From the NCBI GenBank assembly GCA_033675265.1, contig JAUJYZ010000630.1, positions 455,001-519,000 of the forward strand: a stretch of 64,000 bases of DNA, written 5' to 3'. Positions 375 through 56,805 of this stretch are shown piece by piece (within the stretch, counting starts at the first letter, position 1; each line of letters begins with the position of its first letter). The position numbers were made by a program, and so were the translations under genes. A model generated the notes under the pieces. It saw only the letters and a list, made by a program, of their open reading frames with translations, did no database searches and was not told the origin of the DNA. This DNA comes from Actinostola sp. cb2023 (lineage: Eukaryota > Cnidaria > Anthozoa > Actiniaria > Actinostolidae).

Positions 375-3300
375 CTGATGTCTGAAGGGCACAGGAATAG
401 CAAGCTCGACCAGCGAACCAAAAGCTTCATTTAAGTCCCTTGAGGACGACTCTGGTTCGACGCTCACCACTTTGATTGGACGAGAACCTTTTTTGGACTT
501 TTCTAATGAAGATACAAAGGTGTATACAAGAATGAGCAAAGAAACCGTTACAATTCCTCAAGACAGTGTAATGATGCAGTAGACGTACCGAATGTGTCGA
601 TGACATTTAAACGTTCTCTCAATATTTCTTTAAGACTCGATAACTTGCACTGCTTTGCAAGTATGATACAGTCTTCCACTCCAGATACATCGACATACAG
701 GCGACCTTAAAGACACATGACATCCTCATTACACACGGTGATAAATCATTCAAACCCAAAACTTCAGCTATATCACTGATGTTTAGGCCGACTAATCCAA
801 ATGCAAACTCTCTCTCTTAGGGAGAGAGGGTTGGAATAAAAAAGCAGAGACTAGATGGATAGGTGCCATTGAGAGGGGTGTTTGTCTAGAGGGAGCAGAA
901 TTCGCCGCCACCTCTTTCTAGAATAAGAACTAAACAACGAAAGTGATTAAAAACTAGATGAAACATATTGTATGATTATAACGTATACCGACAGACTACC
1001 TGTGTATAGGAAATGTAATATCGCCTTGAATGCCCATGGTTTAACCTACCTGGCTATAGGAACTGTAATATCGCCTTGAATGCCCATGGTTTAACCTACC
1101 TGGCTATAGGAACTGTAATATCGCCTTGAATGCCCATGGTTTAACCTACCTGGCTATAGGAACTGTAATATCGCCTTGAATGAATGCCCATGGTTTAACC
1201 TACCTGGCTATAGAAACTGTAATATCGCCTTGAATGCCCATGGTTTAACCTACCTGTGTATAGGAACTGTAATATCGCCTTGAATGCCCATGGTTTAACC
1301 TATATACCTGTGAATAGGAACTGTAATATCGCCTTGAATGCCCATGGTTTAACCTACCTGGCTATAGGAACTGTAATATCACCTTGAATGCCCATGGTTT
1401 AACCTACCTGGCTATAGAACTGTAATATCGCCTTGAATGCCCATGTAATATCGAACTGTAATATCGCCTTGAATGCCCATGGTTTAACCTACCTGTGTAT
1501 AGGAACTGTAATATCGCCTTGAATGCCCATGGTTTAACCTACCTGTGTATAGGAACTGTAATATCGCCTTGAATGCCCATGGTTTAACCTACCTGTGTAT
1601 AGGAACTGTAATATATCGCCTTGAATGCCCATGGTTTAACCTACCTGTGTATAGGAACTGTAATATCGCCTTGAATGCCCATGGTTTAACCTACCTGGCT
1701 ATAGGAACTGTAATATCGCCTTGAATGCCCATGGTTTAACCTACCTGGCTATAGGAACTGTAATATCGCCTTGAATGCCCATGGTTTAACCTACCTGTGT
1801 ATAGGAACTGTAATATCGCCTTGATGCCCATGGTTTAACCTACCTGTGTATAGGAACTGTAATATCGCCTTGAATGCCCATGGTTTAACCTACCTGTGTA
1901 TAGGAACTGTAATATCGCCTTGAATGCCCATGGTTTAACCTACCTGTGTATAGGAACTGTAATATCGCCTTGAATGCCCATGGTTTAACCTACCTGTGTA
2001 TAGGAACTGTAATATCGCCTTGAATGCCCATGGTTTAACCTACCTGTGTATAGGAACTGTAATATCGCCTTGAATGCCCATGGTTTAACCTACCTGTGTA
2101 TAGGAACTGTAATATCGCCTTGAATGCCCATGGTTTAACCTACCTGTGTATAGGAACTGTAATATCGCCTTGAATGCCCATGGTTTAACCTACCTGTGTA
2201 TAGGAACTGTAATATCGCCTTGAATGCCCATGGTTTAACCTACCTGTGTATAGGAACTGTAATATCGCCTTGAATGCCCATGGTTTAACCTACCTGTGTA
2301 TAGGAACTGTAATATCGCCTTGAATGCCCATGGTTTAACCTACCCTATAGGAACTGTAATATCGCCTTGAATGCCCATGGTTTTAACCTACCTGGCTATA
2401 GGAACTGTAATATCGCCTTGAATGCCCATGGTTTAACCTACCTGGCTATAGGAACTGTAATAACCTTGAATGCCCATGGTTTAACCTACCTGTATAGGAA
2501 CTGTAATATCGCCTTGAATGCCCATGGTTTAACCTACCTGTGTATAGGAACTGTAATATCGCCTTGAATGCCCATGGTTTAACCTACCTGTGTATAGGAA
2601 CTGTAATATCGCCTTGAATGCCCATGGTTTAACCTACCTGTGTATAGGAACTGTAATATCGCCTTGAATGCCCATGGTTTAACCTACCTGTGTATAGGAA
2701 CTGTAATATCGCCTTGAATGCCCATGGTTTAACCTACCTGTGTATAGGAACTGTAATATCGCCTTGAATGCCCATGGTTTAACCTACCTGTGTATAGGAA
2801 CTGTAATATCGCCTTGAATGCCCATGGTTTAACCTACCTGGCTATAGGAACTGTAATATCGCCTTGAATGCCCATGGTTTAACCTACCTGTGTATAGGAA
2901 CTGTAATATCGCCTTGAATGCCCATGGTTTAACCTACCTGTGTATAGGAACTGTAATATCGCCTTGAATGCCCATGGTTTAACCTACCTGTGTATAGGAA
3001 CTGTAATATCGCCTTGAATGCCCATGGTTTAACCTACCTGTGCTATAGGAACTGTAATATCGCCTTGAATGCCCATGGTTTAACCTACCTGGCTATAGGA
3101 ACTGTAATATCGCCTTGAATGCCCATGGTTTAACCTACCTGGCTATAGGAACTGTAATATCGCCTTGAATGCCCATGGTTTAACCTACCTGGCTATAGGA
3201 ACTGTAATATCGCCTTGAATGCCCATGGTTTAACCTACCTGTGTATAGGAACTGTAATATCGCCTTGAATGCCCATGGTTTAACCTACCTGTGTATAGGA

Positions 3301-6300
3301 ACTGTAATATCGCCTTGAATGCCCATGGTTTAACCTACCTGTGTATAGGAACTGTAATATCGCCTTGAATGCCCATGGTTTAACCTACCTGTGTATAGGA
3401 ACTGTAATATCGCCTTGAATGCCCATGGTTTAACCTACCTGGCTATAGGAACTGTAATATCGCCTTGAATGCCCATGGTTTAACCTACCTGTGTATAGGA
3501 ACTGTAATATCGCCTTGAATGCCCATGGTTTAACCTACCTGTGTATAGGAACTGTAATATCGCCTTGAATGCCCATGGTTTAACCTACCTGTGTATAGGA
3601 ACTGTAATATCGCCTTGAATGCCCATGGTTTAACCTACCTGTGTATAGGAACTGTAATACTGTTTAACCTACCTGTGTATAGGAACTGTAATATCGCCTT
3701 GAATGCCCATGGTTTAACCTACCTGTGTATAGGAACTGTAATATCGCCTTGAATGCCCATGGTTTAACCTACCTGTGTATAGGAACTGTAATATCGCCTT
3801 GAATGCCCATGGTTTAACCTACCTATAGGAACTGTATAGGAACTGTAATATCGCCTTGAATGCCCATGGTTTAACCTACCTGGCTATAGGAACTGTAATA
3901 TCGCCTTGAATGCCCATGGTTTAACCTACCTGGCTATAGAAACTGTAATATCGCCTTGAATGCCCATGGTTTAACCTACCTGTGTATAGGAACTGTAATA
4001 TCGCCTTGAATGCCCATGGTTTAACCTATATACCTGTGAATAGGAACTGTAATATCGCCTTGAATGCCCATGGTTTAACCTACCTGGCTATAGGAACTGT
4101 AATATCACCTTGAATGCCCATGGGTTTAACCTACCTGGCTATAGGAACTGTAATATCGCCTTGAATGCCCATGGTTTAACCTACCTGTGCTATAGGAACT
4201 GTAATATCGCCTTGAATGCCCATGGTTTAACCTACCTGTGTATAGGAACTGTAATATCGCCTTGAATGCCCATGGTTTAACCTACCTGTGTATAGGAACT
4301 GTAATATCGCCTTGAATGCCCATGGTTTAACCTACCTGTGTATAGGAACTGTAATATCGCCTTGAATGCCCATGGTTTAACCTACCTGGCTATAGGAACT
4401 GTAATATCGCCTGAATGCCCATGGTTTAACCTACCTGGCTATAGGAACTGTAATATCGCCTTGAATGCCCATGGTTTAACCTACCTGTGTATAGGAACTG
4501 TAATATCGCCTTGAATGCCCATGGTTTAACCTACCTGTGTATAGGAACTGTAATATCGCCTTGAATGCCCATGGTTTAACCTACCTGTGTATAGGAACTG
4601 TAATATCGCCTTGAATGCCCATGGTTTAACCTACCTGTGTATAGGAACTGTAATATCGCCTTGAATGCCCATGGTTTAACCTACCTGTGTATAGGAACTG
4701 TAATATCGCCTTGAATGCCCATGGTTTAACCTACCTGTGTATAGGAACTGTAATATCGCCTTGAATGCCCATGGTTTAACCTACCTGGCTATAGGAACTG
4801 TAATATCGCCTTGAATGCCCATGGTTTAACCTACCTGTGTATAGGAACTGTAATATCGCCTTGAATGCCCATGGTTTAACCTACCTGTGTATAGGAACTG
4901 TAATATCGCCTTGAATGCCCATGGTTTAACCTACCTGTGTATAGGAACTGTAATATCGCCTTGAATGCCCATGGTTTAACCTACCTGTGTATAGGAACTG
5001 TAATATCGCCTTGAATGCCCATGGTTTAACCTACCTGGCTATAGGAACTGTAATATCGCCTTGAATGCCCATGGTTTAACCTACCTGGCTATAGGAACTG
5101 TAATATCACCTTGAATGCCCATGGTTTAACCTACCTGGCTATAGGAACTGTAATATCGCCTTGAATGCCCATGGTTTAACCTACCTGTGTATAGGAACTG
5201 TAATATCGCCTTGAATGCCCATGGTTTAACCTACCTGTGTATAGGAACTGTAATATCGCCTTGAATGCCCATGGTTTAACCTACCTGTGTATAGGAACTG
5301 TAATATCGCCTTGAATGCCCATGGTTTAACCTACCTGTGTATAGGAACTGTAATATCGCCTTGAATGCCCATGGTTTAACCTACCTGTGTATAGGAACTG
5401 TAATATCGCCTTGAATGCCCATGGTTTAACCTACCTGTGTATAGGAACTGTAATATCGCCTTGAATGCCCATGGTTTAACCTACCTGGCTATAGGAACTG
5501 TAATATCGCCTTGAATGCCCATGGTTTAACCTACCTGTGTATAGGAACTGTAAACTGTAATATCGCCTTGAATGCCCATGGTTTAACCTACCTGTGTATA
5601 GGAACTGTAATATCGCCTTGAATGCCCATGCCCATTTAACCTACCTGTGTATAGGAACTGTAATATCGCCTTGAATGCCCATGGTTTAACCTACCTGTGT
5701 ATAGGAACTGTAACTGTAATATCGCCTTGAATGCCCATGGTTTAACCTACCTGGCTATAGGAACTGTAATATCGCCTTGAATGCCCATGGTTTAACCTAC
5801 CTGGCTATAGGAACTGTAATATCACCTTGAATGCCCATGGTTTAACCTACCTGGCTATAGGAACTGTAATATCGCCTTGAATGCCCATGGTTTAACCTAC
5901 CTGTGTATAGGAACTGTAATATCGCCTTGAATGCCCATGGTTTAACCTACCTGTGTATAGGAACTGTAATATCGCCTTGAATGCCCATGGTTTAACCTAC
6001 CTGTGTATAGGAACTGTAATATCGCCTTGAATGCCCATGGTTTAACCTACCTGTGTATAGGAACTGTAATATCGCCTTGAATGCCCATGGTTTAACCTAC
6101 CTGGCTATAGGAACTGTAATATCACCTTGAATGCCCATGGTTTAACCTACCTGGCTATAGGAACTGTAATATCGCCTTGAATGCCCATGGTTTAACCTAC
6201 CTGTGTATAGGAACTGTAATATCGCCTTGAATGCCCATGGTTTAACCTACCTGTGTATAGGAACTGTAATATCGCCTTGAATGCCCATGGTTTAACCTAC

Positions 6301-9300
6301 CTGTGTATAGGAACTGTAATATCGCCTTGAATGCCCATGGTTTAACCTACCTGTGTATAGGAACTGTAATATCGCCTTGAATGCCCATGGTTTAACCTAC
6401 CTGTGTATAGGAACTGTAATATCGCCTTGAATGCCCATGGTTTAACCTACCTGTGTATAGGAACTGTAATATCGCCTTGAATGCCCATGGTTTAACCTAC
6501 CTGGCTATAGGAACTGTAATATCGCCTTGAATGCCCATGGTTTAACCTACCTGTGTATAGGAACTGTAATATCGCCTTGAATGCCCATGGTTTAACCTAC
6601 CTGTGTATAGGAACTGTAATATCGCCTTGAATGCCCATGGTTTAACCTACCTGTGTATAGGAACTGTAATATCGCCTTGAATGCCCATGGTTTAACCTAC
6701 CTGTGTATAGGAACTGTAATATCGCCTTGAATGCCCATGGTTTAACCTACCTGGCTATAGGAACTGTAATATCGCCTTGAATGCCCATGGCTTAACCTAT
6801 ATACCTGTGTATAGGAACTGTAATATCGCCTTGAATGCCCATGGTTTAACCTACCTGTGTATAGGAACTGTAATATCGCCTTGAATGCCCATGGTTTAAC
6901 CTACCTGTGTATAGGAACTGTAATATCGCCTTGAATGCCCATGGTTTAACCTACCTGGCTATAGGAACTGTAATATCGCCTTGAATGCCCATGGTTTAAC
7001 CTACCTGGCTATAGGAACTGTAATATCGCCTTGAATGCCCATGGTTTAACCTACCTGTGTATAGGAACTGTAATATCGCCTTGAATGCCCATGGTTTAAC
7101 CTACCTGTGTATAGGAACTGTAATATCGCCTTGAATGCCCATGGTTTAACCTACCTGTGTATAGGAAACTGTAATATCGCCTTGAATGCCCATGGTCTAA
7201 CCTACCTGTGTATAGGAACTGTAATATCGCCTTGAATGCCCATGGTTTAACCTACCTGTGTATAGGAACTGTAATATCGCCTTGAATGCCCATGTTTAAC
7301 CTACCTGTGTATAGGAACTGTAATATCGCCTTGAATGCCCATGGTTTAACCTACCTGTGTATAGGAACTGTAATATCGCCTTGAATGCCCATGGTTTAAC
7401 CTACCTGTGTATAGGGAACTGTAATATCGCCTTGAATGCCCATGGTTTAACCTACCTGTGTATAGGAACTGTAATATCGCCTTGAATGCCCATGGTTTAA
7501 CCTACCTGTGTATAGGAACTGTAATATCGCCTTGAATGCCCATGGTTTAACCTACCTGTGTATAGGAACTGTAATATCGCCTTGAATGCCCATGGTTTAA
7601 CCTACCTGTGTATAGGAACTGTAATATCGCCTTGAATGCCCATGGTTTAACCTACCTGTGTATAGGAACTGTAATATCGCCTTGAATGCCCATGGTTTAA
7701 CCTAGAATTGAAAAGAAGAACATTTAGTGTCTGCCTGTAATAGTGTCTAATTGGTGTGTCTCACTGTAACAGCGGTAATTTTCAGAGTAACATTGGTGCA
7801 TCTCACCATAATAGTGTTATGTGTTAACGTAACAGCGGTAAGTTTTGACGGTGAGTCTTACCTTAACATTGGTGCGTCTTACCGTAACATTGGTGCGTCT
7901 TACCGTAACATTTGTGCGTCTTACCGTAACATTGGTGCGTCTTACCGTAACATTGGTGCATCTTACCGTAAACTTGGTGCGTCTTACCGTAATAGTACGT
8001 TTTACCGTAATAGTGATGCATCTTACCGTAATAGTGGTTCGTCTTACCGTAATAGTGGTGCGTCTTACCGTAATAGTGGTGCGTCTTACCGTAATAGTGG
8101 TGCGTCTTACCGTAATAGTGGTGCGTCTTACCGTAAAAGTGGTGCGTCCTACCGTAATAGTGATGCGTCTTACCGCAAAAATGGTGCGTCTTACCGTAAT
8201 AGTGATGCGTCTTACCGTAATAGTGGTGCGTCCTACCGTAATAGTGGTGCGTCTTACCGTAATAGTGGTGCGTCTTACCGTAAAAGTGGTGCGTCCTACC
8301 GTAATAGTGATGCGTCTTACCGCAAAAATGGTGCGTCTTACCGTAATAGTGATGCGTCTTACCGTAATAGTGGTGCGTCTTACCGTAATAGTGGTGCGTC
8401 TTACCGTAAAAGTGGTGCGTCTTACCGTAATAGTGGTGCGTCTTACCGTAATAATGGTGCGTCTTACCGTAATAGTGATGCGTCTTACCGTAATAGTGGT
8501 GCGTCTTACCGTAATAGTGGTGCGTCTTACCGTAAAAGTGGTGCGTCCTACCGTAATAGTGGTGCGTCTTATCGTAATAGTGATGCGTCTTACCGTAATA
8601 GTGATGCGTCTTACCGTAATAGTGGTGCGTCTTACCGTAATAGTGGTGCGTCTTACCGTAAAAGTGGTGCGTGCGTCTTACCGTAATAGTGGTGCGTCTT
8701 ACCGTAATAATGGTGCGTCTTACCGTAATAGTGATGCGTCTTACCGTAATAGTGGTGCGTCTTACCGTAATAGTGGTGCGTCTTACCGTAAAAGTGGTGC
8801 GTCCTACCGTAATAGTGGTGCGTCTTATCGTAATAGTGATGCGTCTTACCGTAATAGTGGTGCGTCTTACCGTAATAGTGATGCGTCTTACCGTAATAGT
8901 GGTGCGTCTTACCGTAATAGTGGTGCGTCTTACCGTAATAGTGGTGCGTCTTACCGTTACATTGGTGCGTCTTACCGTAATAATGATGCGTCTCACTGTA
9001 ATAGTGGTGCGTCTTACCGTAATAGTGGTGCGTCTTATCGTAATAGTACTAGTGGTGCGTCTTACCGTAATAGTGGTGCGTCTTACCGTAATAGTGATGC
9101 GTCTTACCGCAAAAGTGGTGCGTCTTATCGTAATAGTGATGCGTCTTACCGTAATAGTACTAGTGGTGCGTCTTACCGTAATAGTGGTGCATCTTACCGT
9201 AATAGTGGTGCGTCTTACCGTAATAGTGGTGCATCTTACCGTAATAGTGATGCGTCTTATCGTAATAGTACTAGTGGTGCGTCTTACCGTAATAGTGGTG

Positions 9301-12300
9301 CATTTTACCGTAATAGTGGTGCGTCTTACCGTAATAATGGTGCGTTTTACCGTAATAGTGGTGCATCTTACCGTAATAGAGATGCGTCTTACCGTAATAG
9401 TGGTGCGTCTTACCGTAATAGTGGTGCGTCTTACCGTAATAGTGGTGCGTCTTACCGTAATAGTGGTGCGTCTTACCGTAATAGTGATGCGTCGTACCGC
9501 AAAAGTGGTGCATCTTACCGTAATAACGGTGCGTCTTACCGTAATAACGGTGCGTCTTACCGTAATAGTGGTGCGTCTTACCGTAATAGTGGTGCGTCTT
9601 ACCGTAATAACGGTGCGTCTTACCGTAATAGTGGTGCGTCTCAAAGCGTCTTACCGCAATAGTGGAGTATTTCTCAAAACATTGTATTGCTCAAATAGAA
9701 ACAAGTGAATTTACCAGTATAATATGTACTTACAAGAGAGAGAATTACGGCGCTTTTTCTAGGACATCACTTGATACTTACCATTGGATGATTGAGGCGA
9801 ATTAGAGATCGTCCTTTCCACTTTGTTTCAAACATCTGTGCAAAGTAGGATGACCTAGCGGTTATAATTGCTCTATGGGCATGAACCTTGACTCCATGAA
9901 TCACGAAACACACGTCTACAAACGCTTGATCCTCTAGACACCTATTAAAATATATTACAATGATTATGGGCAGCTACAATGAATGAATGAATGAATGAAT
10001 GAATGAATGAATGAATGAATGAATGAATGAATGAATGAAAAAAAAATTAATGAATGAATGAATGAATGAATGAATGAATGAATGGATAAATGAATGAATG
10101 AATAAATGAATGAATGAATGAATGAATGAATGAATGAATGAATGAATGAATGAATGAATGAATGAATGAATGAATGAATGAATGAATGGATAAATGAATG
10201 AATGAAAAAATAATGAATGAATGAATGGATGAATGAATGAATGGATAAATGAATGAATGGATGAATGAATGAATGAATAGATAAATGAATGAATGAAAAA
10301 ATAATGAATGAATGAATGGATAAATGAATGAATGAAAAAATGAATGAATGAATGAATGGATGAATGAATGAATGGATAAATGAATGAATGAAAAAAAATA
10401 ATGAATGAATGAATGAATGAATGAATGAATGAATGAATGGATAAATGAATGAATGAAAAAATGAATGAATGAATGAATGAATGAATGAATGAATGAATGG
10501 ATAAATGAATGAATGAAAAAATAATGAATGAATGAATGAATGGATGAATGAATGAATGGATAAATGAATGAATGGATGAATGAATGAATGAATGAATGGA
10601 TAAATGAATGAATGAAAAAATGAATGAATGAATGAATGAATGAATGGATAAATGAATGAATGAATGAATGAATGGATAAATGAATGAATGAAAAAATAAT
10701 GAATGAATGAATGGATAAATGAATGAATGAAAAAATGAATGAATGAATGAATGAATGGATAAATGAATGAATGAAAAAATAATGAATGAATGAATGGATA
10801 AATGAATGAATGAAAAAATAATGAATGAATGAATGGATAAATGAATGAATGAAAAAATGAATGAATGAATGAATGAATGGATAAATGAATGAATGAAAAA
10901 ATAATGTATGAATGAATGGATAAATGAATGAATGAAAAAATGAATGAATGAATGAATGAATGGATAAATGAATGAATGAAAAAATAATGAATGAATGAAT
11001 GGATAAATGAATGAATGAAAAAATGAATGAATGAATGAATGGATATATGAATGAATGGATAAATGAATGAATGAATGAATGGATAAATGAATGAATGGAT
11101 GGATAAATGAATGAATGAATGAAAGAATGAACGAATGGATAAATGGATAAATGAATGAGTGAATAGATAAATAAATGAATGAATTCAATGGATGGATATT
11201 TTTGATGAAAGTGATGACGAGAAGATAAATCATTTAATTCGATCGAATATTTCGGCTAACAACTGTAGCCATCTACTGCGCGAGTGAGTGAATGCTAATA
11301 CATTTACAAGGTTACTTAGTTGAATAAGTAAAGAGGAAGTGACTGTCCCTATTCGTTCAGGCTTGGCTTTATTTGTTTAATAAACAAAGCCTCTGAGATT
11401 TTTCTCTTTTTGTAGTACTGGTAGTTAGTAGCAAGCACGTGAAAATTGTCTTTGGAAACAGGCTTTGGATATTTTTGTATTTGCAGATAGATATTTTGAG
11501 TTGCTTTCTTCATTTTACTCATTCATATTTCATTAATTAATTCAATCATTCATTCATTTATTCATTGCTTTTATTTTTTTCTATTTTTTGGCAAGTACCA
11601 CAACGAGCTGTCAAATCAGAGTCAGTTCCATTTCATTTGTAGTTTTTTACTACAATACTTACTGTACCTTCTAAAACATTCCCTGTATGAATCTCTTCTC
11701 ATGCATTCTGGTGTGATAGCTTTATAATCCTTCAACAGCCCTCTAATACGATCATTTAAGGCAGCGTAAACACACCGTTCACCGTCAAATGAACTAGGTT
11801 CACATGTTGCACCTAAAGTATATAGCACAACGTTGAATATACCATACAAAAACAAAAAAAATTCTGTTTGTACTTTGTATGGTTTTTCATCAATCCATTT
11901 TGAGGCAAATTAATACATATATTGAAGAAATAGAAAACGAGCGCTATGTGCTATGTGCAGATTTATAGCATGCAGGGACTGATCATGCAGAACATGAGAG
12001 AAGTGTTAAGAGCGTTGTGCTTCTCAACAGTTCTCAAGTGTTTTGATCAGTCCCCAAGTGCTATAAATCTGCACAGCGGGCAAGTTTTCTATTTCTTTTA
12101 TAAAATACAATTATGATTTTAAGGTAAGATTTCAATTTTGTTTGCTACAAAAATGTTTGAATATCTGCGTGCGCATGCACTGTGCTCTCATAGAGCATGT
12201 GGAATACACATCCTTTGGCCAATCAGAGCACACGTTATATCATAGTTAAGTTATTTTATAATTTTACATAAAATGTTCTCAATATAATCTTTCTGTGAAA

Positions 12301-14710
12301 CCATATTTGTAGATTCTGAGACTGTTCATAAGTGTGCTTGCCTCTAAGTAGTCTCCCTCGCATCCATTCTTAGTTCTGTCACACTCCCGGAACTAATTAT
12401 AACAGATGCGAGGGAGACTAGCCTCTCAGTTACTTTCCCAGAAACCCTTGCACAGTCTCATTTTTGGGTTTGATAATTTGGATTTGAGCAATGGTGTGTA
12501 GTATGGGGCCATTTGGGTAGTTATATAGTCAATCCTGGTCAAAATTTAAAAACTCAAAAAATTTGAAAAAGTGAAATTCAAACCCATAATAAATAAACTC
12601 CTTTGCATCCCCTAGCTCTTTGAAGTACCACCCTCCCCTTTACTCCCTTCTGGGGTTCTATTATTTTATTTTAAAATTTTCACACTTAAATTATACCTCT
12701 TTGAAGAAGGAACTGCACTAGGCTTTCATGACCACATAGACATGTGTAGTAACTGACAAATGGGAAAAAATGAATGGTTAATTAAGACAAGTGAAATTTA
12801 AGCTTGTTTTCATTATTCAGTCTTATTCCTGTATTTCACATAATTCATACCCCGGCTGATTACAGTTATTTGATTTCTTTGTTGTTGGTTTAATTAATTG
12901 CCTTAAAACATATATATATATATATATATATCCACAAGGCTGACCTCTTTAATGCATTCATGTTGTCCTCATTGTCATATTGTGCTGTACTAGCATGCAA
13001 CAGCAATAATGAACAACGTTTCATGCATTCCAATGAGAATTGAAGTGCTTTTGTTTAGTTGCCATAAATGTTCTTTACTACTTACAGTGGAGTACTGTTC
13101 CATTGGTCCCTTACATTGATTTCAACATCTCCTTCTTCAACTATATACCTGAGGATTCAAATCAAATAAAGTATGTCAGCCTAGTTCCAGGCTTTCACTG
13201 ATGAGGGATGTTTTGATGATGTCACCGGCAAGCCCCCACGGGGGGTACTCAGGGATATCAGTGACGGGGAGGTGCGAAGACCTTTTTGGCGGGTACTTTG
13301 AAATTCGCGGCTTGGGACTTTTTGGGGTTAGCAATTTTCTGGTGGACTTTCTTTGATATAAAGATTTTGGCAAGGACTTTTTTTTTGGGTTGATTAAAAT
13401 GATATCCTCGCTCGCATTCTCTTGGTGTTTTTACTTTTTTTACGTGGAGAAAAAATGGACCTTTTTGGGGTTACGTTCTGGGCCGTGGACTTTTTGGGGG
13501 TCTTGTTTTTTGCGTAATTGACTTTTTGGGGGTTAAAAAGTTTGGCCTCATTCGCACCTCCCCGTCACTGATACCCCTGAGTACCCCCCCCCCCCCCCCC
13601 CTGGGGGCAAGCCCTCAGTCCTCAAGCTTTGTGCTCAGATAGGAGATTATATAACACACAGCTGGGAATTAAGGATGGAAGTATGTGTTTCTTCTACAGT
13701 TATTTAAAGTACTTATCACCCTTACATGGATGTTTTAAACATCAATTCAATATAAACTGTTTGGTATGTAATTGTAATTTGAAACTTGATGACTTGGGTT
13801 TGAAATTTCAATATGCAAATCAGGTGACCTCAATAGGTTCATATCACAAAATACTGACCCCGGCCTCCAACTATTCAGCTTTATACTGACCATTGAATCG
13901 ATTTTTAACACAAGCAGACAAACTGAAGCAAACAATGGTGATAGGCACTTAAATGCTTACATTGTATTTCATGTGATGTAAGCCATTGTTATTAATGTCA
14001 AAACCAGACATATATTAAATGTGCTTGGATTGAAATCGAAATTGATTCACGTATGGAATGGGTCATATTTTTTCAACTATATTTAAGGACATTATATTGT
14101 GTGTTTTTATTTTGCATGCTTCAAATCAACTAAAATTAAGTCCCTTCATGCATTGTAGTCTACATACGTCGAATTTGCATAACACTAAATTACAGGCCTG
14201 AGTGATATCTGAATAAAATATTAGTCAGACATCTGCAGAGCTGCTTCGTATACGTATTCTAACGCATTCAGCTCGTGAAGGCATAATTTACTTTCTTGTA
14301 CATTATATCAATGAGCTATTCATGTAGCTGATGACATTTACTAGAATACGCTAGAGTGCACAAAGCATCAATTAGTTCAACGCGTACTCGCTCATATAAC
14401 TTTTGACAGTCCAACCCGCTTTCATTTTTAAAAGCACAGATTCTCTCATTTTGTGATATTTGCAGCGGTAAAATCTCCACAGAATTGTACATATCAAGCT
14501 AGATTTTGAGCGTTAAGTTAACGAAGCACTCGCAGATTAACAACAATCAGTTATAAGCTTATTTCCATGTCGTCATCAGATCTCCACTCGAACATAAACA
14601 CAATAAAACATCACCAAAATATTGTGCAAAAATGACATATTTCGTACCACTCACCTTAACCTCTCCAAATCTCCAATTCTACAGGAGTAAAATAGTTCTT
14701 GGGCAGCCAT
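375..14710 (-). CDS. ABTB1: ABTB1 (ankyrin repeat and BTB/POZ protein 1), 5' eight coding exons
   Basis: ABTB1 (BPOZ) is an ankyrin-BTB protein; BTB proteins of this kind are linked to CUL3 ubiquitin ligases and to eEF1A turnover. Exons on the minus strand: E1 14710-14655, E2 13148-13086, E3 12752-12697, E4 11812-11668, E5 9941-9782, E6 7701-7656, E7 705-589, E8 502-375. All introns are GT-AG and phases run 2,2,1,2,0,1,1,0, giving 257 residues. Diagnostic peptides in order: start MAAQELFYSCRIGDL; ankyrin segments VEINVRDQWNSTPL and YYTCLCGHESLVQFLL; FDGERCVYAALNDRIRGLL (E4); BTB1 DVCFVIHGVKVHAHRAI and MFETKWKGR (E5); WAFKAILQFLYTG (E6); VEDCIILAKQCKL (E7); IKVVSVEPE (E8). These match vertebrate ABTB1 in the same order. 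The second BTB domain must lie beyond position 1. The exons are short while introns 4-6 are filled with tandem arrays. No disabling mutation was seen. Confidence 0.93.
1000..7701 (-). repeat. 50-bp minisatellite made of ABTB1 exon 6 plus GTAG (about 134 copies)
   Basis: On the gene's sense strand each unit is the 46-base exon 6 followed by GTAG, so every copy ends CACAG|GTAG and is preceded by AG. Length divided by 50 gives about 134 units. Two main variants exist: one ending CCTATACACAG (codes LYT) and one ending CCTATAGCCAG (in-frame TAG). Rarer variants include an ATATCACC form and small indels, for example near 1440, 3657, 5555 and 5628. Blocks of variants recur, pointing to higher-order duplication. 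Fifty is not a multiple of three and read-through meets stops, so including several copies would break the frame. Confidence 0.95.
7656..7701 (-). CDS. ABTB1: ABTB1 exon 6, promoter-proximal copy of the repeated exon
   Basis: This 46-base exon begins after a pyrimidine-rich acceptor (ttcttcttttcaattctag, minus strand) and ends at CACAG|GTAGGT. It reads VKPWAFKAILQFLYT plus the first base of a glycine codon. Phase 0 in and phase 1 out fit exon 5 (ends HPM, phase 0) and exon 7 (starts with GT then CGC CTG, giving GRLYVDV). It is the only array copy with a genuine polypyrimidine tract upstream. The last copy (1000-1045) is next to unique intron sequence and differs by Q to H in the QFLYT part. 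Confidence 0.9.
7752..9658. repeat. 21-bp minisatellite (about 85 copies) in ABTB1 intron 5
   Basis: The plus-strand unit is GTGGTGCGTCTTACCGTAATA with variants (GTGATG, AAAAGTG, TACATTG); the 7752-7870 end is degenerate. The unit length is a multiple of three and lacks stops, so long ORFs appear in several frames on both strands. This is an artefact, not coding evidence. On the ABTB1 sense strand each unit reads TTACGGTAAGACG, resembling a 5' splice site (G|GTAAGA). Confidence 0.93.
9979..11190. repeat. (TGAA)n-type tetranucleotide array in ABTB1 intron 4
   Basis: GAATGAAT tracts are interrupted by recurring GGATAAATGAATGAATG and AAAAAATAATG segments, forming a higher-order repeat of roughly 40-70 bases. 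The long minus-strand ORF (SFIH repeats) is a by-product of the period. It lies between ABTB1 exons 4 and 5. Confidence 0.95.
11924..12099. mobile_element. Hairpin MITE in ABTB1 intron 3
   Basis: The ends GAAATAGAAAAC and GTTTTCTATTTC are inverted, and the inner arms (GCAGATTTATAGCA, GGGACTGATCA) recur inverted before 12080. The element is almost wholly palindromic. No target duplication was resolved. Confidence 0.7.
12349..12420. mobile_element. Short inverted-repeat element
   Basis: AGTCTCCCTCGCATC at about 12350 is perfectly inverted at 12405-12419 around a 40-base loop, in ABTB1 intron 3. A similar CTCCCTCG end occurs in the large element at 57,603-59,496. Confidence 0.55.
13233..13607. 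mobile_element. MITE family with G/C homopolymer end
   Basis: The left end GGGGTACTCAGGGATATCAG plus GACGGGGAGGTGCG is inverted at about 13552-13590, followed by a long C run. Internal CTTTTTGG-type repeats are present. It lies in ABTB1 intron 1. A related shorter copy is at 63,160-63,307 in the copine gene, sharing GGGGTACTCAGGGGTATCAG and the blocks around GATATCATTTTTATCAACC and AAGTCCTTGTCAAAATC. The minus-strand ORF here is not a gene. Confidence 0.7.
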
Positions 14711-15143: not shown

Positions 15144-15647
15144 ATGCCAAAACGAAGTAAAAGACAACAACAAAACGAGGAACACGAGGGAAGGCCACCA
15201 GGACTTACTCTAGCAAGTTTTGTTCAACTTACAGATCTCGATAGCTCACCTGCTACAGAGAGTTCTAATAGTACTACAGATAAAGTTGCTGGATCAAAGA
15301 CCTCAGAGACAAGTTGTGAAACTTTGGCTCAAGAATATGCATGCAGTTTAGAACAGGTCAAAGATAATGTCCAGTCGGAATCGTCATCTTCCAAAACAAC
15401 TTATTCTGTTGGGAAAACCAAGAAAGGCAAGTTGCCTTTATCATGCGAGAATAGATCCAAAGGCAAAAAGGTTACTGTAATAAGCAATGTAACAGGGGAT
15501 GCTAGTGCTCTGTTGCACGAGCTGAAAAAAAGAGCAGGATGTGGTGGAGTTTTACGAGAGGGGACGGTGGAGCTGCAAGGGGATCGAGTACTATTTGTGT
15601 CCAAGTATTTAACAGGGCATCCTTGTTTAAAGTCGTACAAAGGTTGA
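15144..15647 (+). CDS. SUI1/eIF1-domain protein resembling bacterial YciH
   Basis: An intronless ORF of 167 residues begins with ATG at 15144 (A at -3, a good context); the reading frame upstream has no earlier ATG. The N-terminal half is polar and low complexity (MPKRSKRQQQNEEHEGR, then Ser/Thr-rich). The C-terminal about 60 residues form a SUI1 domain: GKKVTVISNV, LLHELKKRAGCGG and EGTVELQGDRV, the pattern of YciH/eIF1 (LKK, GxGG, ELQGD). SUI1 domains act in start-codon selection on the small ribosomal subunit. The domain looks closer to the bacterial-type YciH form than to animal eIF1 or DENR, but that is judged by eye. A poly(A) signal AATAAA lies at 15709-15714. It is head to head with ABTB1. 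Lack of introns could reflect retroposition or transfer, or simply a short gene. Confidence 0.8.
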   Translation: MPKRSKRQQQNEEHEGRPPGLTLASFVQLTDLDSSPATESSNSTTDKVAGSKTSETSCETLAQEYACSLEQVKDNVQSESSSSKTTYSVGKTKKGKLPLSCENRSKGKKVTVISNVTGDASALLHELKKRAGCGGVLREGTVELQGDRVLFVSKYLTGHPCLKSYKG

Positions 15648-22112: not shown

Positions 22113-22984
22113 TAATACCTGCAATAGCAAGCCCAGCTGCAACCTTGAGAGTTTTGATAAAGCCTCTTGCTATGCTTTTGATTTTGGTGAAACTGATGTT
22201 AAATTTTCTTTTCAGCGTAACCATTTTCTTCTTGAATTTCGTTTGCTGTCTTCCAATCCACTGTCCAAATTTCGTGTTCTTGAAGCCTTTTTGTTTCTTT
22301 TTAGGAGGCTTAAAGTCGGCTTTTAGATCGCTTTCCAGCTGAAGAATTAATAAATAGTAACCGGTTATATTTATCCGCTTTCCCATGTTTGATATCATTG
22401 AAAAAAGTTAACAAAAGCAACATGTAGGTTTGTTTGGATCTTAGAATTGTAGGTTGATATGGATTTAAATCACAAGAAGATATCAATATGAAATTCATAC
22501 TTACAATTCCTACTCTTCGTTGTCTATATCGTTTTCTAGCAAACTTAAACATTTGAAAAGCAGCAGGAATGGCCAGTGTAAGAGCGGGGATGGAAATGGC
22601 CAGAGCATTTCGTAGTTTTGTTCTGTACAGACCATTAACCTTCAGATACGATACTTTTTTCTTCAATTCTTTTTTCTTTTTAGCTAATTTCTGTTGATTA
22701 GCAAAGGGAATTATGATATGTTTTTTTTGTAAGGATATGAAGAGCATTTTGTAAGTATTCATACCTCTATTTCAGTTCTAGCATTATTGCTTGCAACCAA
22801 GACTGCAGGACTGACTTGTCGAAGCATTTTTTCACTATCAGTATCGATTTCATTCAACTTGCATAATATTCTACCAAACATTTCTGATGTGCTCTGAATA
22901 TAATTTTGATCCGCCTCAGCTGCGGTGACAAAAGAGAAAGTATAAGGTGAAGACCATATTACAACTGCGCCATGCAATATTGTA

Positions 22985-23850
22985 GGCAATGTGTCAATCT
23001 CTGCATTTTGTTGCGCAATGTTGTAGGCAATGTGTCAATCTCTGCAATTTGTTGCGCAATGTTGTAGGCAATGTGTCAATCTCTGCAATTTGTTGCGCAA
23101 TGTTGAGGGCAATGTGTCAATCTCTGCAATTTGTTGCGCGCAATATTGTAGGCATCGTGTCCACCTCTGCAATTTGTTGCGCGCAATATTGCAGGCGTCG
23201 TGTCCACCTCTGCAATTTGTTGCGCAATGTTGCAGGCATCGTGTCCACCTCTGCAATTTGTTGCGCGCAATGTTGCAGGCATCGTGTCCACCTCTGCAAT
23301 TTGTTGCGCAATGTTGCAGGCGTCGTGTCCACCTCTGCAATTTGTTGCGCAATGTTGCAGGCATCGTGTCCACCTCTACAATTCGTTGCGCAATATTGCA
23401 GGCATCGTGTCCACCTCTACAATTTGTTGCGCAATATTACAGGCATCGTGTCCACCTCTACAATTTGTTGCGCAATGTTGCAGGCATCGTGTCCACCTGG
23501 CGCAATGCTGCAGGCATCGTGTCCACCTCTACAATTTGTTGCGCAATATTGCAGGCATCGTGTCCACCTCTACAATTTGTTGCGCAATGTTGCAGGCATC
23601 GTGTCCACCTCTACAATTTGTTGCGCAATGTTGCAGGCATCGTGTCAACCTCTACAATTTGTTGCGCAATGTTGCAGGCATCGTGTCCACCTCTACAATT
23701 TGTTGCGCAATGTTGCAGGCATCGTGTATACCTCTGCAATTTGTTGCGCAATATTGTAGTATCGTGTCTCTGCAATTTGTTACGCGCAATATTGCAGGCA
23801 TCGTGTCCCGCCTCTGCAATTTGTTGCGCAATATTGCAGGCATCAGTCTG
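22985..23850 (-). repeat. 41-43-bp minisatellite in intron 4 of copy 3
   Basis: The unit contains GCAATGTTGCAGGCATCGTG and TCCACCTCTGCAATTTGTTG (plus strand), with units at the low-coordinate end reading AATGTGTCAATC. Same family and same intron as 29,485-31,595 (copy 1) and 42,486-43,275 (copy 2). ORFs in it are artefacts. Confidence 0.93.

Positions 23851-28223: not shown

Positions 28224-38319
<10,096 letters not shown>

Positions 38320-41216: not shown

Positions 41217-56805
<15,589 letters not shown>

Follow-up and report, generated by a model that had tools for sequence, protein, structure and literature searches.

A 46-nt coding exon of ABTB1 has been amplified into a minisatellite in the 64,000-nt stretch of an Actinostola sp. 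cb2023 contig analysed here (hereafter the window). To the splicing machinery the array probably presents a single acceptor and, downstream of it, a ladder of donors that are nearly the same in sequence, with the copy adjoining the acceptor (copy 1) as the working exon and copies 2-134 as intron. We favor this reading because a good acceptor is found only at copy 1, a strong donor is found in 127 of 134 units, and 48 of the 134 copies are unusable as an exon. A minisatellite that contains an exon essential to the frame would be expected to do a gene great harm, and the frame is nevertheless intact.

Eight minus-strand exons between positions 14710 and 375, joined via array copy 1, form a 257-aa open frame. 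They comprise exon 1 with the start codon (14655-14710), exon 2 (13086-13148), exon 3 (12697-12752), exon 4 (11668-11812), exon 5 (9782-9941, phase 0 out), exon 6 as copy 1 of the array (7656-7701, the predicted working exon), exon 7 (589-705) and exon 8 (375-502). GT-AG borders were found for exons 1-5, 7 and 8, and exon 6 is entered in phase 0 and left in phase 1. The model protein carries Pfam Ank_2 and BTB matches above the cut-off, with N-terminal ankyrin repeats followed by a BTB domain. Its best named homologs are from sea anemones, which supports an anthozoan origin, with 77% identity to ABTB1 of Exaiptasia diaphana over 100% of the query and 68% to that of Actinia. The initial annotation had named the gene ABTB1 and predicted a missing exon of 46 bases, phase 0 in and phase 1 out; the name agrees with these matches, and once exons 1-5, 7 and 8 are placed the phases are those predicted. 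A gene encoding a SUI1 domain lies head to head with ABTB1.

The exon 6 segment occurs once in each of 17 of 19 aligned homologs; the two exceptions are Pocillopora models, in which the segments after it are absent as well. Since 13 of the 19 homologs are 479-510 aa long, ABTB1 likely continues beyond the window start, after exon 8. The second BTB domain and the C-terminal part, which are defining for ABTB1, would here fall beyond window position 1. As the remainder of ABTB1 lies outside the window, the gene is not proven to be intact. Six of 72 highly conserved columns are changed in the window protein relative to its homologs, two of these in common with Exaiptasia, so that relaxed constraint is possible.

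The array occupies positions 996-7704. Tandem Repeats Finder (TRF) reported 134.1 copies of a 50-bp unit with 95% matches, and an independent segmentation of the minus strand also gave 134 units, each a 46-nt copy of exon 6 followed by GTAG; both the copy number of about 134 and the composition of the unit had been proposed beforehand and hold. A search of the whole window with a 23-nt exon core, allowing up to 3 mismatches, returned 129 matches, all on the minus strand and all inside the array, against a chance expectation of 0. No fewer than 76 interior units agree with one another in every letter. Copies 1-5 share the same sequence, and an mRNA derived from copy 1 would therefore be indistinguishable by sequence alone from one derived from copies 2-5. 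At the downstream edge, copy 134 (1000-1045, minus strand) carries a Q to H change; 15 of the 17 homologs bearing the segment have Q at this site.

The acceptor that had been claimed for the array edge is present and reads TTCTTCTTTTCAATTCTAG/GTTAAA. This acceptor of copy 1, gacactaaatgttcttcttttcaattctag (7702-7731, minus strand), is the only one in the array with a polypyrimidine tract, and 31 nt separate it from the next AG upstream, the corresponding distance in the seven acceptors of the gene model being 21-56 nt. The AG of an internal linker has other AGs at 6, 19, 31, 52 and 56 nt upstream, and the competing AGs at 6 and 19 nt suggest that the internal-border AG is not a credible acceptor. 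A simple acceptor score was unfit as evidence, giving -3.1 for the genuine exon 7 acceptor and -2.3 for an internal linker AG; our argument relies on the AG-free distance together with the pyrimidine tract. The initial annotation had each copy bordered by AG and GT: the GT stands, as a strong CAG/GTAGGT in 127 of the 134 units, but inside the array the AG is not credible as an acceptor. The donor thus appears to be the usable splice signal that is repeated.

The copy 1 donor, GTAGGT (7650-7655, minus strand), takes its +5 and +6 bases from the first two of the copy 2 exon and forms a U1 duplex of -11.4 kcal/mol. The presumed original donor at the far end of the array, GTAGTC (994-999, minus strand), is weaker than the internal donors: its CAG/GTAGTC scores 4.9 bits and -7.8 kcal/mol with U1, compared with 10.0 bits and about -11.4 kcal/mol internally. 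These values depend on the donor matrix and the U1 5′-end sequence that were assumed. The linker donor reaches at least 7 bits in 129 of the 134 units (the 127 identical ones, plus 1 and 1), and a wider donor search found one in 133, unit 125 being without. Donors 2, 3, 4 and so on are as strong as donor 1, so the choice of rung 1 is not explained by donor strength. At 46 nt, the exon is on the small side for exon definition. Among the 133 rungs of the ladder, only the first leaves the frame open; translation ends after 220 aa at the second and after 194 aa at the remaining 131, while skipping exon 6 brings a stop after 188 aa. The arithmetic proposed earlier, that one copy keeps the frame and two copies with their linker (96 nt) do not, was correct.

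The same figures would suit a poison switch, in which many equal donors are used, most ABTB1 transcripts gain additional steps of 50 nt and undergo degradation, and the amount of functional mRNA is set by array length. A donor shared by 127 of 134 units and a ladder with one productive rung in 133 fit this, as does human IFI6, where splicing can also use the donors of two repeat units farther downstream, yielding three mRNAs (PMC4526556). The remaining exons argue against a long-silent gene: their frame is open and the protein is 77% identical to that of Exaiptasia. We regard such a switch as rather unlikely.

Variation among the units bears on the reality of the array. Long tandem arrays are difficult to assemble, and single-base indels, which distinguish several units, resemble read errors; the array might then be a rare allele, or an artefact of assembly or consensus calling, and the normal gene might have one or few copies. 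Other variants, however, look inherited: in-frame stops fall at the codon that reads TAC in copy 1 (TAC>TAG), the linker is GTATATAG in 3 units, and a C23T change occurs in 5. Patterns also recur at a distance, as expected from unequal exchange, units 24-32 matching units 44-52 and the rare variants of units 73 and 75 reappearing in units 128 and 130. With further arrays elsewhere in the window (182-305 copies of 4-bp units), an artefact or rare allele seems very unlikely.

The condition of the copies distinguishes the favored reading from one in which they serve as alternative exons. The initial annotation held that the pre-mRNA offers more than a hundred versions of the exon, and in that case any intact copy might be spliced in, possibly several non-adjacent ones, since by arithmetic 1, 4, 7 and so on copies keep the frame. 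Frame and donor are indeed kept in 86 of the 134 copies, but the other 48 are broken, 32 by an in-frame stop, 14 by a frameshift and 2 by loss of the AG/GT donor. In addition, a competing AG lies 6 nt before every internal border, and the intact copies are so nearly identical that little would be gained. With an acceptor free of close upstream AGs in copy 1 only, 4-nt linkers far too short for introns and 48 unusable copies, the array is unlike usual alternative exons; the claim of over a hundred versions was not upheld, and we consider this alternative highly improbable. A bank of functional exons was likewise rejected, given the in-frame stops in 32 of 134 copies and no sign of purifying selection on the interior copies.

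Under the single-acceptor model, copies 2-134 (996-7651, minus strand), which contain all stop, frameshift and AG/GT-donor-less copies, are predicted to be part of intron 6. The 13 units adjoining the acceptor form a stop-free run, as occurs at 2 of 134 circular offsets (hypergeometric P 0.024), which favors copy 1 as the working exon but is suggestive only. Counting defects of every type, unit 6 is the first copy that is not intact, which is unremarkable (P 0.10; 16 of 134 circular offsets). Folding of the RNA of two units revealed no structure beyond chance (z 0.44).

Loss of ABTB1, as a decaying pseudogene or a gene already broken by the array, has next to no chance of being correct: the potential for mis-splicing is strong and 6 of 72 conserved columns are changed, but 257 codons are open over eight exons with GT-AG borders, and the head-to-head SUI1 neighbor has a counterpart in Actinia tenebrosa, where a SUI1 relative and ABTB1 each lie on a contig of 365,846, equal in size.

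The anatomy suggests how the gene may have survived, with a four-base overhang of the founding duplication giving the first copy a better donor and making the rest intron. This duplication would have fused ...CAGGTAG to the GTTAAA of the exon itself, with three bases, TAG, common to both breakpoints, and would have changed the donor from GTAGTC to the stronger GTAGGT. Because GTAG plus the exon's own GT gave the stronger donor, the first duplication likely completed copy 1, leaving it with the full acceptor and an improved donor and rendering later copies intronic. Unequal exchange would then have been free to expand the intronic copies with the gene unbroken, and the copies free to decay, intron 6 lengthening from 294 nt (706-999) to 6950 nt (706-7655). 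Donors 2 and 3 may leak to some degree, producing mRNAs of +50 and +100 nt with early stops; array length may therefore lower ABTB1 output somewhat.

Several known systems share features with this array. Mutually exclusive exons of the Dscam type likewise multiply a single exon position many times in tandem between constant exons. Their copies have diverged, and each possesses an acceptor of its own as well as a true intron, whereas the copies here are near-identical, lie 4 nt apart, lack good acceptors (AGs 6 and 19 nt upstream) and are broken in 48 of 134 cases. Coding VNTRs such as LPA kringle IV-2 and the mucins also place exon sequence in a tandem array, and translation reads through their exon copies jointly; in the ABTB1 array, a pair of adjacent copies plus linker would shift the frame, and from three copies upward a stop would appear. 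The closest known system is human IFI6 (G1P3, 6-16), whose minisatellite likewise sits on the boundary between an exon and an intron and has donor-bearing units. The IFI6 unit is reportedly short and carries a donor only, whereas the unit here is a whole coding exon plus 4 intron bases, in 134 copies, and all rungs but the first break the frame. The title of Turri, Cuin and Porter (1995) describes the IFI6 minisatellite as supplying multiple splice donors. Intron gain by tandem genomic duplication is also related: as PMC3443670 describes, the AG/GT borders of a duplicated AGGT-bearing segment let the extra copy be spliced away with the protein unchanged. The duplicated segment in ABTB1 is likewise bordered by AG/GT (junction CAG/GTAG/GTTAAA), but it is a complete exon, and no new intron arises at a formerly exonic site because intron 6 already had the far-edge donor GTAGTC (999-994) and the exon 7 acceptor. 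Among the matches listed for the exon-array literature, in a search of titles and abstract beginnings that left most subscription papers outside, none concerned a minisatellite built from an entire coding exon with a 4-nt linker.

The array constitutes a natural experiment on how the spliceosome selects one of many identical 5′ splice sites, spaced 50 nt apart, when only one 3′ splice site precedes them. It bears on how far exon length and order, as opposed to site strength, decide splicing, and the products predicted should give a clean ladder in +50-nt increments, readable by RT-PCR.

A second array, with a 21-bp unit, lies in intron 5 (7850-9641, minus strand), and its sense strand carries 69 donor-like sites scoring 7 bits or more, and ACGGTAAGA accounts for 65 of these. 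One could imagine a repeat-length dial, in which the number of exon-plus-GTAG copies sets the balance between rung 1 (protein) and later rungs (stop) and in which, with about 200 U1-binding donor motifs per pre-mRNA from both arrays, splicing and U1 protection of the long intron would vary with a hypermutable repeat; we think this unlikely. Counted over the 50-bp and 21-bp arrays, U1-binding donor motifs number 203 on the sense strand and 5 on the antisense strand.

The ABTB1 gene model consists of eight minus-strand exons with GT-AG borders, yielding a 257-aa open frame that begins with the start codon at 14710 and extends as far as position 375, close to the window edge, with fitting phases at all seven introns. 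The initial annotation had deduced a missing exon entered in phase 0 and left in phase 1. The first copy of a tandem array (copy 1, 7656-7701, minus strand), 46 nt long, matched these required exon 6 phases. In the window, TRF delimited this array at 996-7704, with a unit of about 50 bp, 134.1 copies and 95% matches, and an independent segmentation also returned 134 units, in agreement with the annotated exon-plus-GTAG unit in about 134 copies. On the minus strand, the unit reads GTTAAACCATGGGCATTCAAGGCGATATTACAGTTCCTATACACAG, followed by GTAG, the linker between neighboring copies. A 23-nt core of the unit gave 129 matches in the window when up to three mismatches were allowed, every one of them within the array and in minus-strand orientation, for a chance expectation of none. 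Counted from the acceptor side, units 1-5 are letter-identical, so that copy 1 is indistinguishable from its neighbors by sequence.

Ankyrin and BTB matches in the 257-aa model protein exceed the Pfam cut-offs. Its best homologs come from two sea anemones, with Exaiptasia diaphana ABTB1 (77% identity across the full query) ahead of Actinia tenebrosa ABTB1 (68% over 99%). Head to head with the gene lies a SUI1-domain gene (15144-15647, plus strand; a single 167-aa open frame with a Pfam SUI1 match), whose Actinia tenebrosa relative is located on a contig equal in size (365,846) to that of Actinia ABTB1, an arrangement suggestive of a conserved gene pair. Together, these homologs and this pairing point to a sea anemone as the likely host and to probable orthology of the gene with ABTB1. 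In an alignment of 19 homologs, two weak ankyrin-only matches being excluded, the exon 6 segment occurs once in each of 17 sequences; the other two, Pocillopora models, lack the following segments as well. At 72 highly conserved columns, the window protein deviates at six, two of them in common with Exaiptasia.

The copy 1 acceptor, ttcttcttttcaattctag, has its closest upstream AG at 31 nt, this distance being 21 to 56 nt for the seven acceptors of the gene model, copy 1 included. Interior units would be entered at the linker AG, which is preceded by AGs at 6, 19, and 31 nt. A simple acceptor score (copy 1, 6.6; interior AG, -2.3; exon 7, -3.1) did not separate gene-model acceptors from the interior AG, and the case for the copy 1 acceptor is therefore based on its AG-free distance and pyrimidine tract. 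Regarding the donors, CAG|GTAGGT ends 127 of the 134 units; it scores 10.0 bits and pairs with the U1 5′ end at -11.4 kcal/mol, compared with 4.9 bits and -7.8 kcal/mol for the far-edge donor CAG|GTAGTC (999-994, minus strand). The AG-free approach to copy 1 and the recurrent donors lead us to read the array, from its sequence, as a single acceptor with a ladder of donors behind it.

Predicted products were derived by joining exon 5 to the copy 1 acceptor and donor n to exon 7 for all 133 units with a linker donor, unit 125 being the sole exception. On paper, n=1 is open, n=2 stops after 220 aa and the remaining 131 stop after 194 aa, confirming that one copy keeps the frame and two with the linker do not; skipping exon 6 leads to a stop after 188 aa. 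The proposal of more than one hundred exon versions held only in part: used singly, 86 of 134 copies keep frame and donor, but 48 are broken (32 with an in-frame stop, 14 shifted, two without an AG|GT donor) and the interior AGs are crowded. Copy 134, at the far edge, carries a Q-to-H change; of the 17 homologs having the segment, 15 show Q at this position. The 13 acceptor-side units are stop-free, a run that begins at 2 of 134 circular offsets (hypergeometric P 0.024); when all kinds of damage are counted, the first broken unit is unit 6 (P 0.10, 16 of 134 offsets).

The last bases of the left flank, TTCTAG, have TAG in common with the far edge, GTAGTCTG. Duplication via this shared TAG would have produced exon-GTAG-exon, in which the preceding donor gains the exon's own leading GT as its +5 and +6 bases and is converted from GTAGTC into GTAGGT. 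Copy 1 would then possess all that an exon needs and the second copy would be intron, after which unequal exchange could have expanded intron 6, initially 294 nt long (706-999), to 6950 nt (706-7655). The distant recurrence of variant patterns fits unequal exchange: units 24-32 match units 44-52, and rare variants of units 73 and 75 recur in units 128 and 130. The TRF arrays listed take up about 29% of the window. Array growth by itself is therefore commonplace in this stretch, and what sets the exon 6 array apart is that its unit is an exon.

The array does not qualify as a cluster of mutually exclusive exons, since it lacks the features that define one. Nearest in kind is the human IFI6 minisatellite, whose units likewise supply splice donors, two downstream units being used (PMC4526556); by analogy, splicing would be expected to leak to rungs 2 and 3 of the ladder to some extent. 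New introns have been described as arising when segments bordered by AGGT are duplicated in tandem (PMC3443670), whereas the predicted outcome in ABTB1 is the lengthening of an existing intron. Unlike in both cases, the unit here is a complete coding exon with a 4-nt overhang. Among the papers listed from a literature collection with few subscription journals, no title or abstract opening showed the same anatomy.

Expanded arrays follow one another in intron 4, intron 5 and exon 6. TRF placed about 305 AATG copies in intron 4 (9978-11184). Just upstream of the exon 6 array, intron 5 holds 84 copies of a 21-bp unit (7850-9641) with the donor-like sense-strand repeat ACGGTAAGA. Sense sites of at least 7 bits number 69 in this 21-bp array, 134 in the exon 6 array (129 at linkers, five within exon copies), none in the AATG array and nine in the remainder of the gene; antisense sites total nine, five of them in the 21-bp array. 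The 21-bp array may belong with the exon 6 donor ladder, or its adjoining donor-like motif may be due to chance: a shuffled 21-mer attains its score on one strand with a probability of 0.003, uncorrected for the eight repeat units and two strands examined.

Elsewhere, three arrays (22974-23844, 29496-31599, and 42490-43276) have one 41-43-bp unit; open frames behind the last two have a nearly identical stretch in common (LYHGL...), and each of these two arrays is also followed by an AGAC array (33443-34530 and 45293-46017), so that sizeable segments of the window appear duplicated. A run of long open frames, up to 444 aa, at 49989-53942 (minus strand) possibly represents parts of a mobile-element gene.
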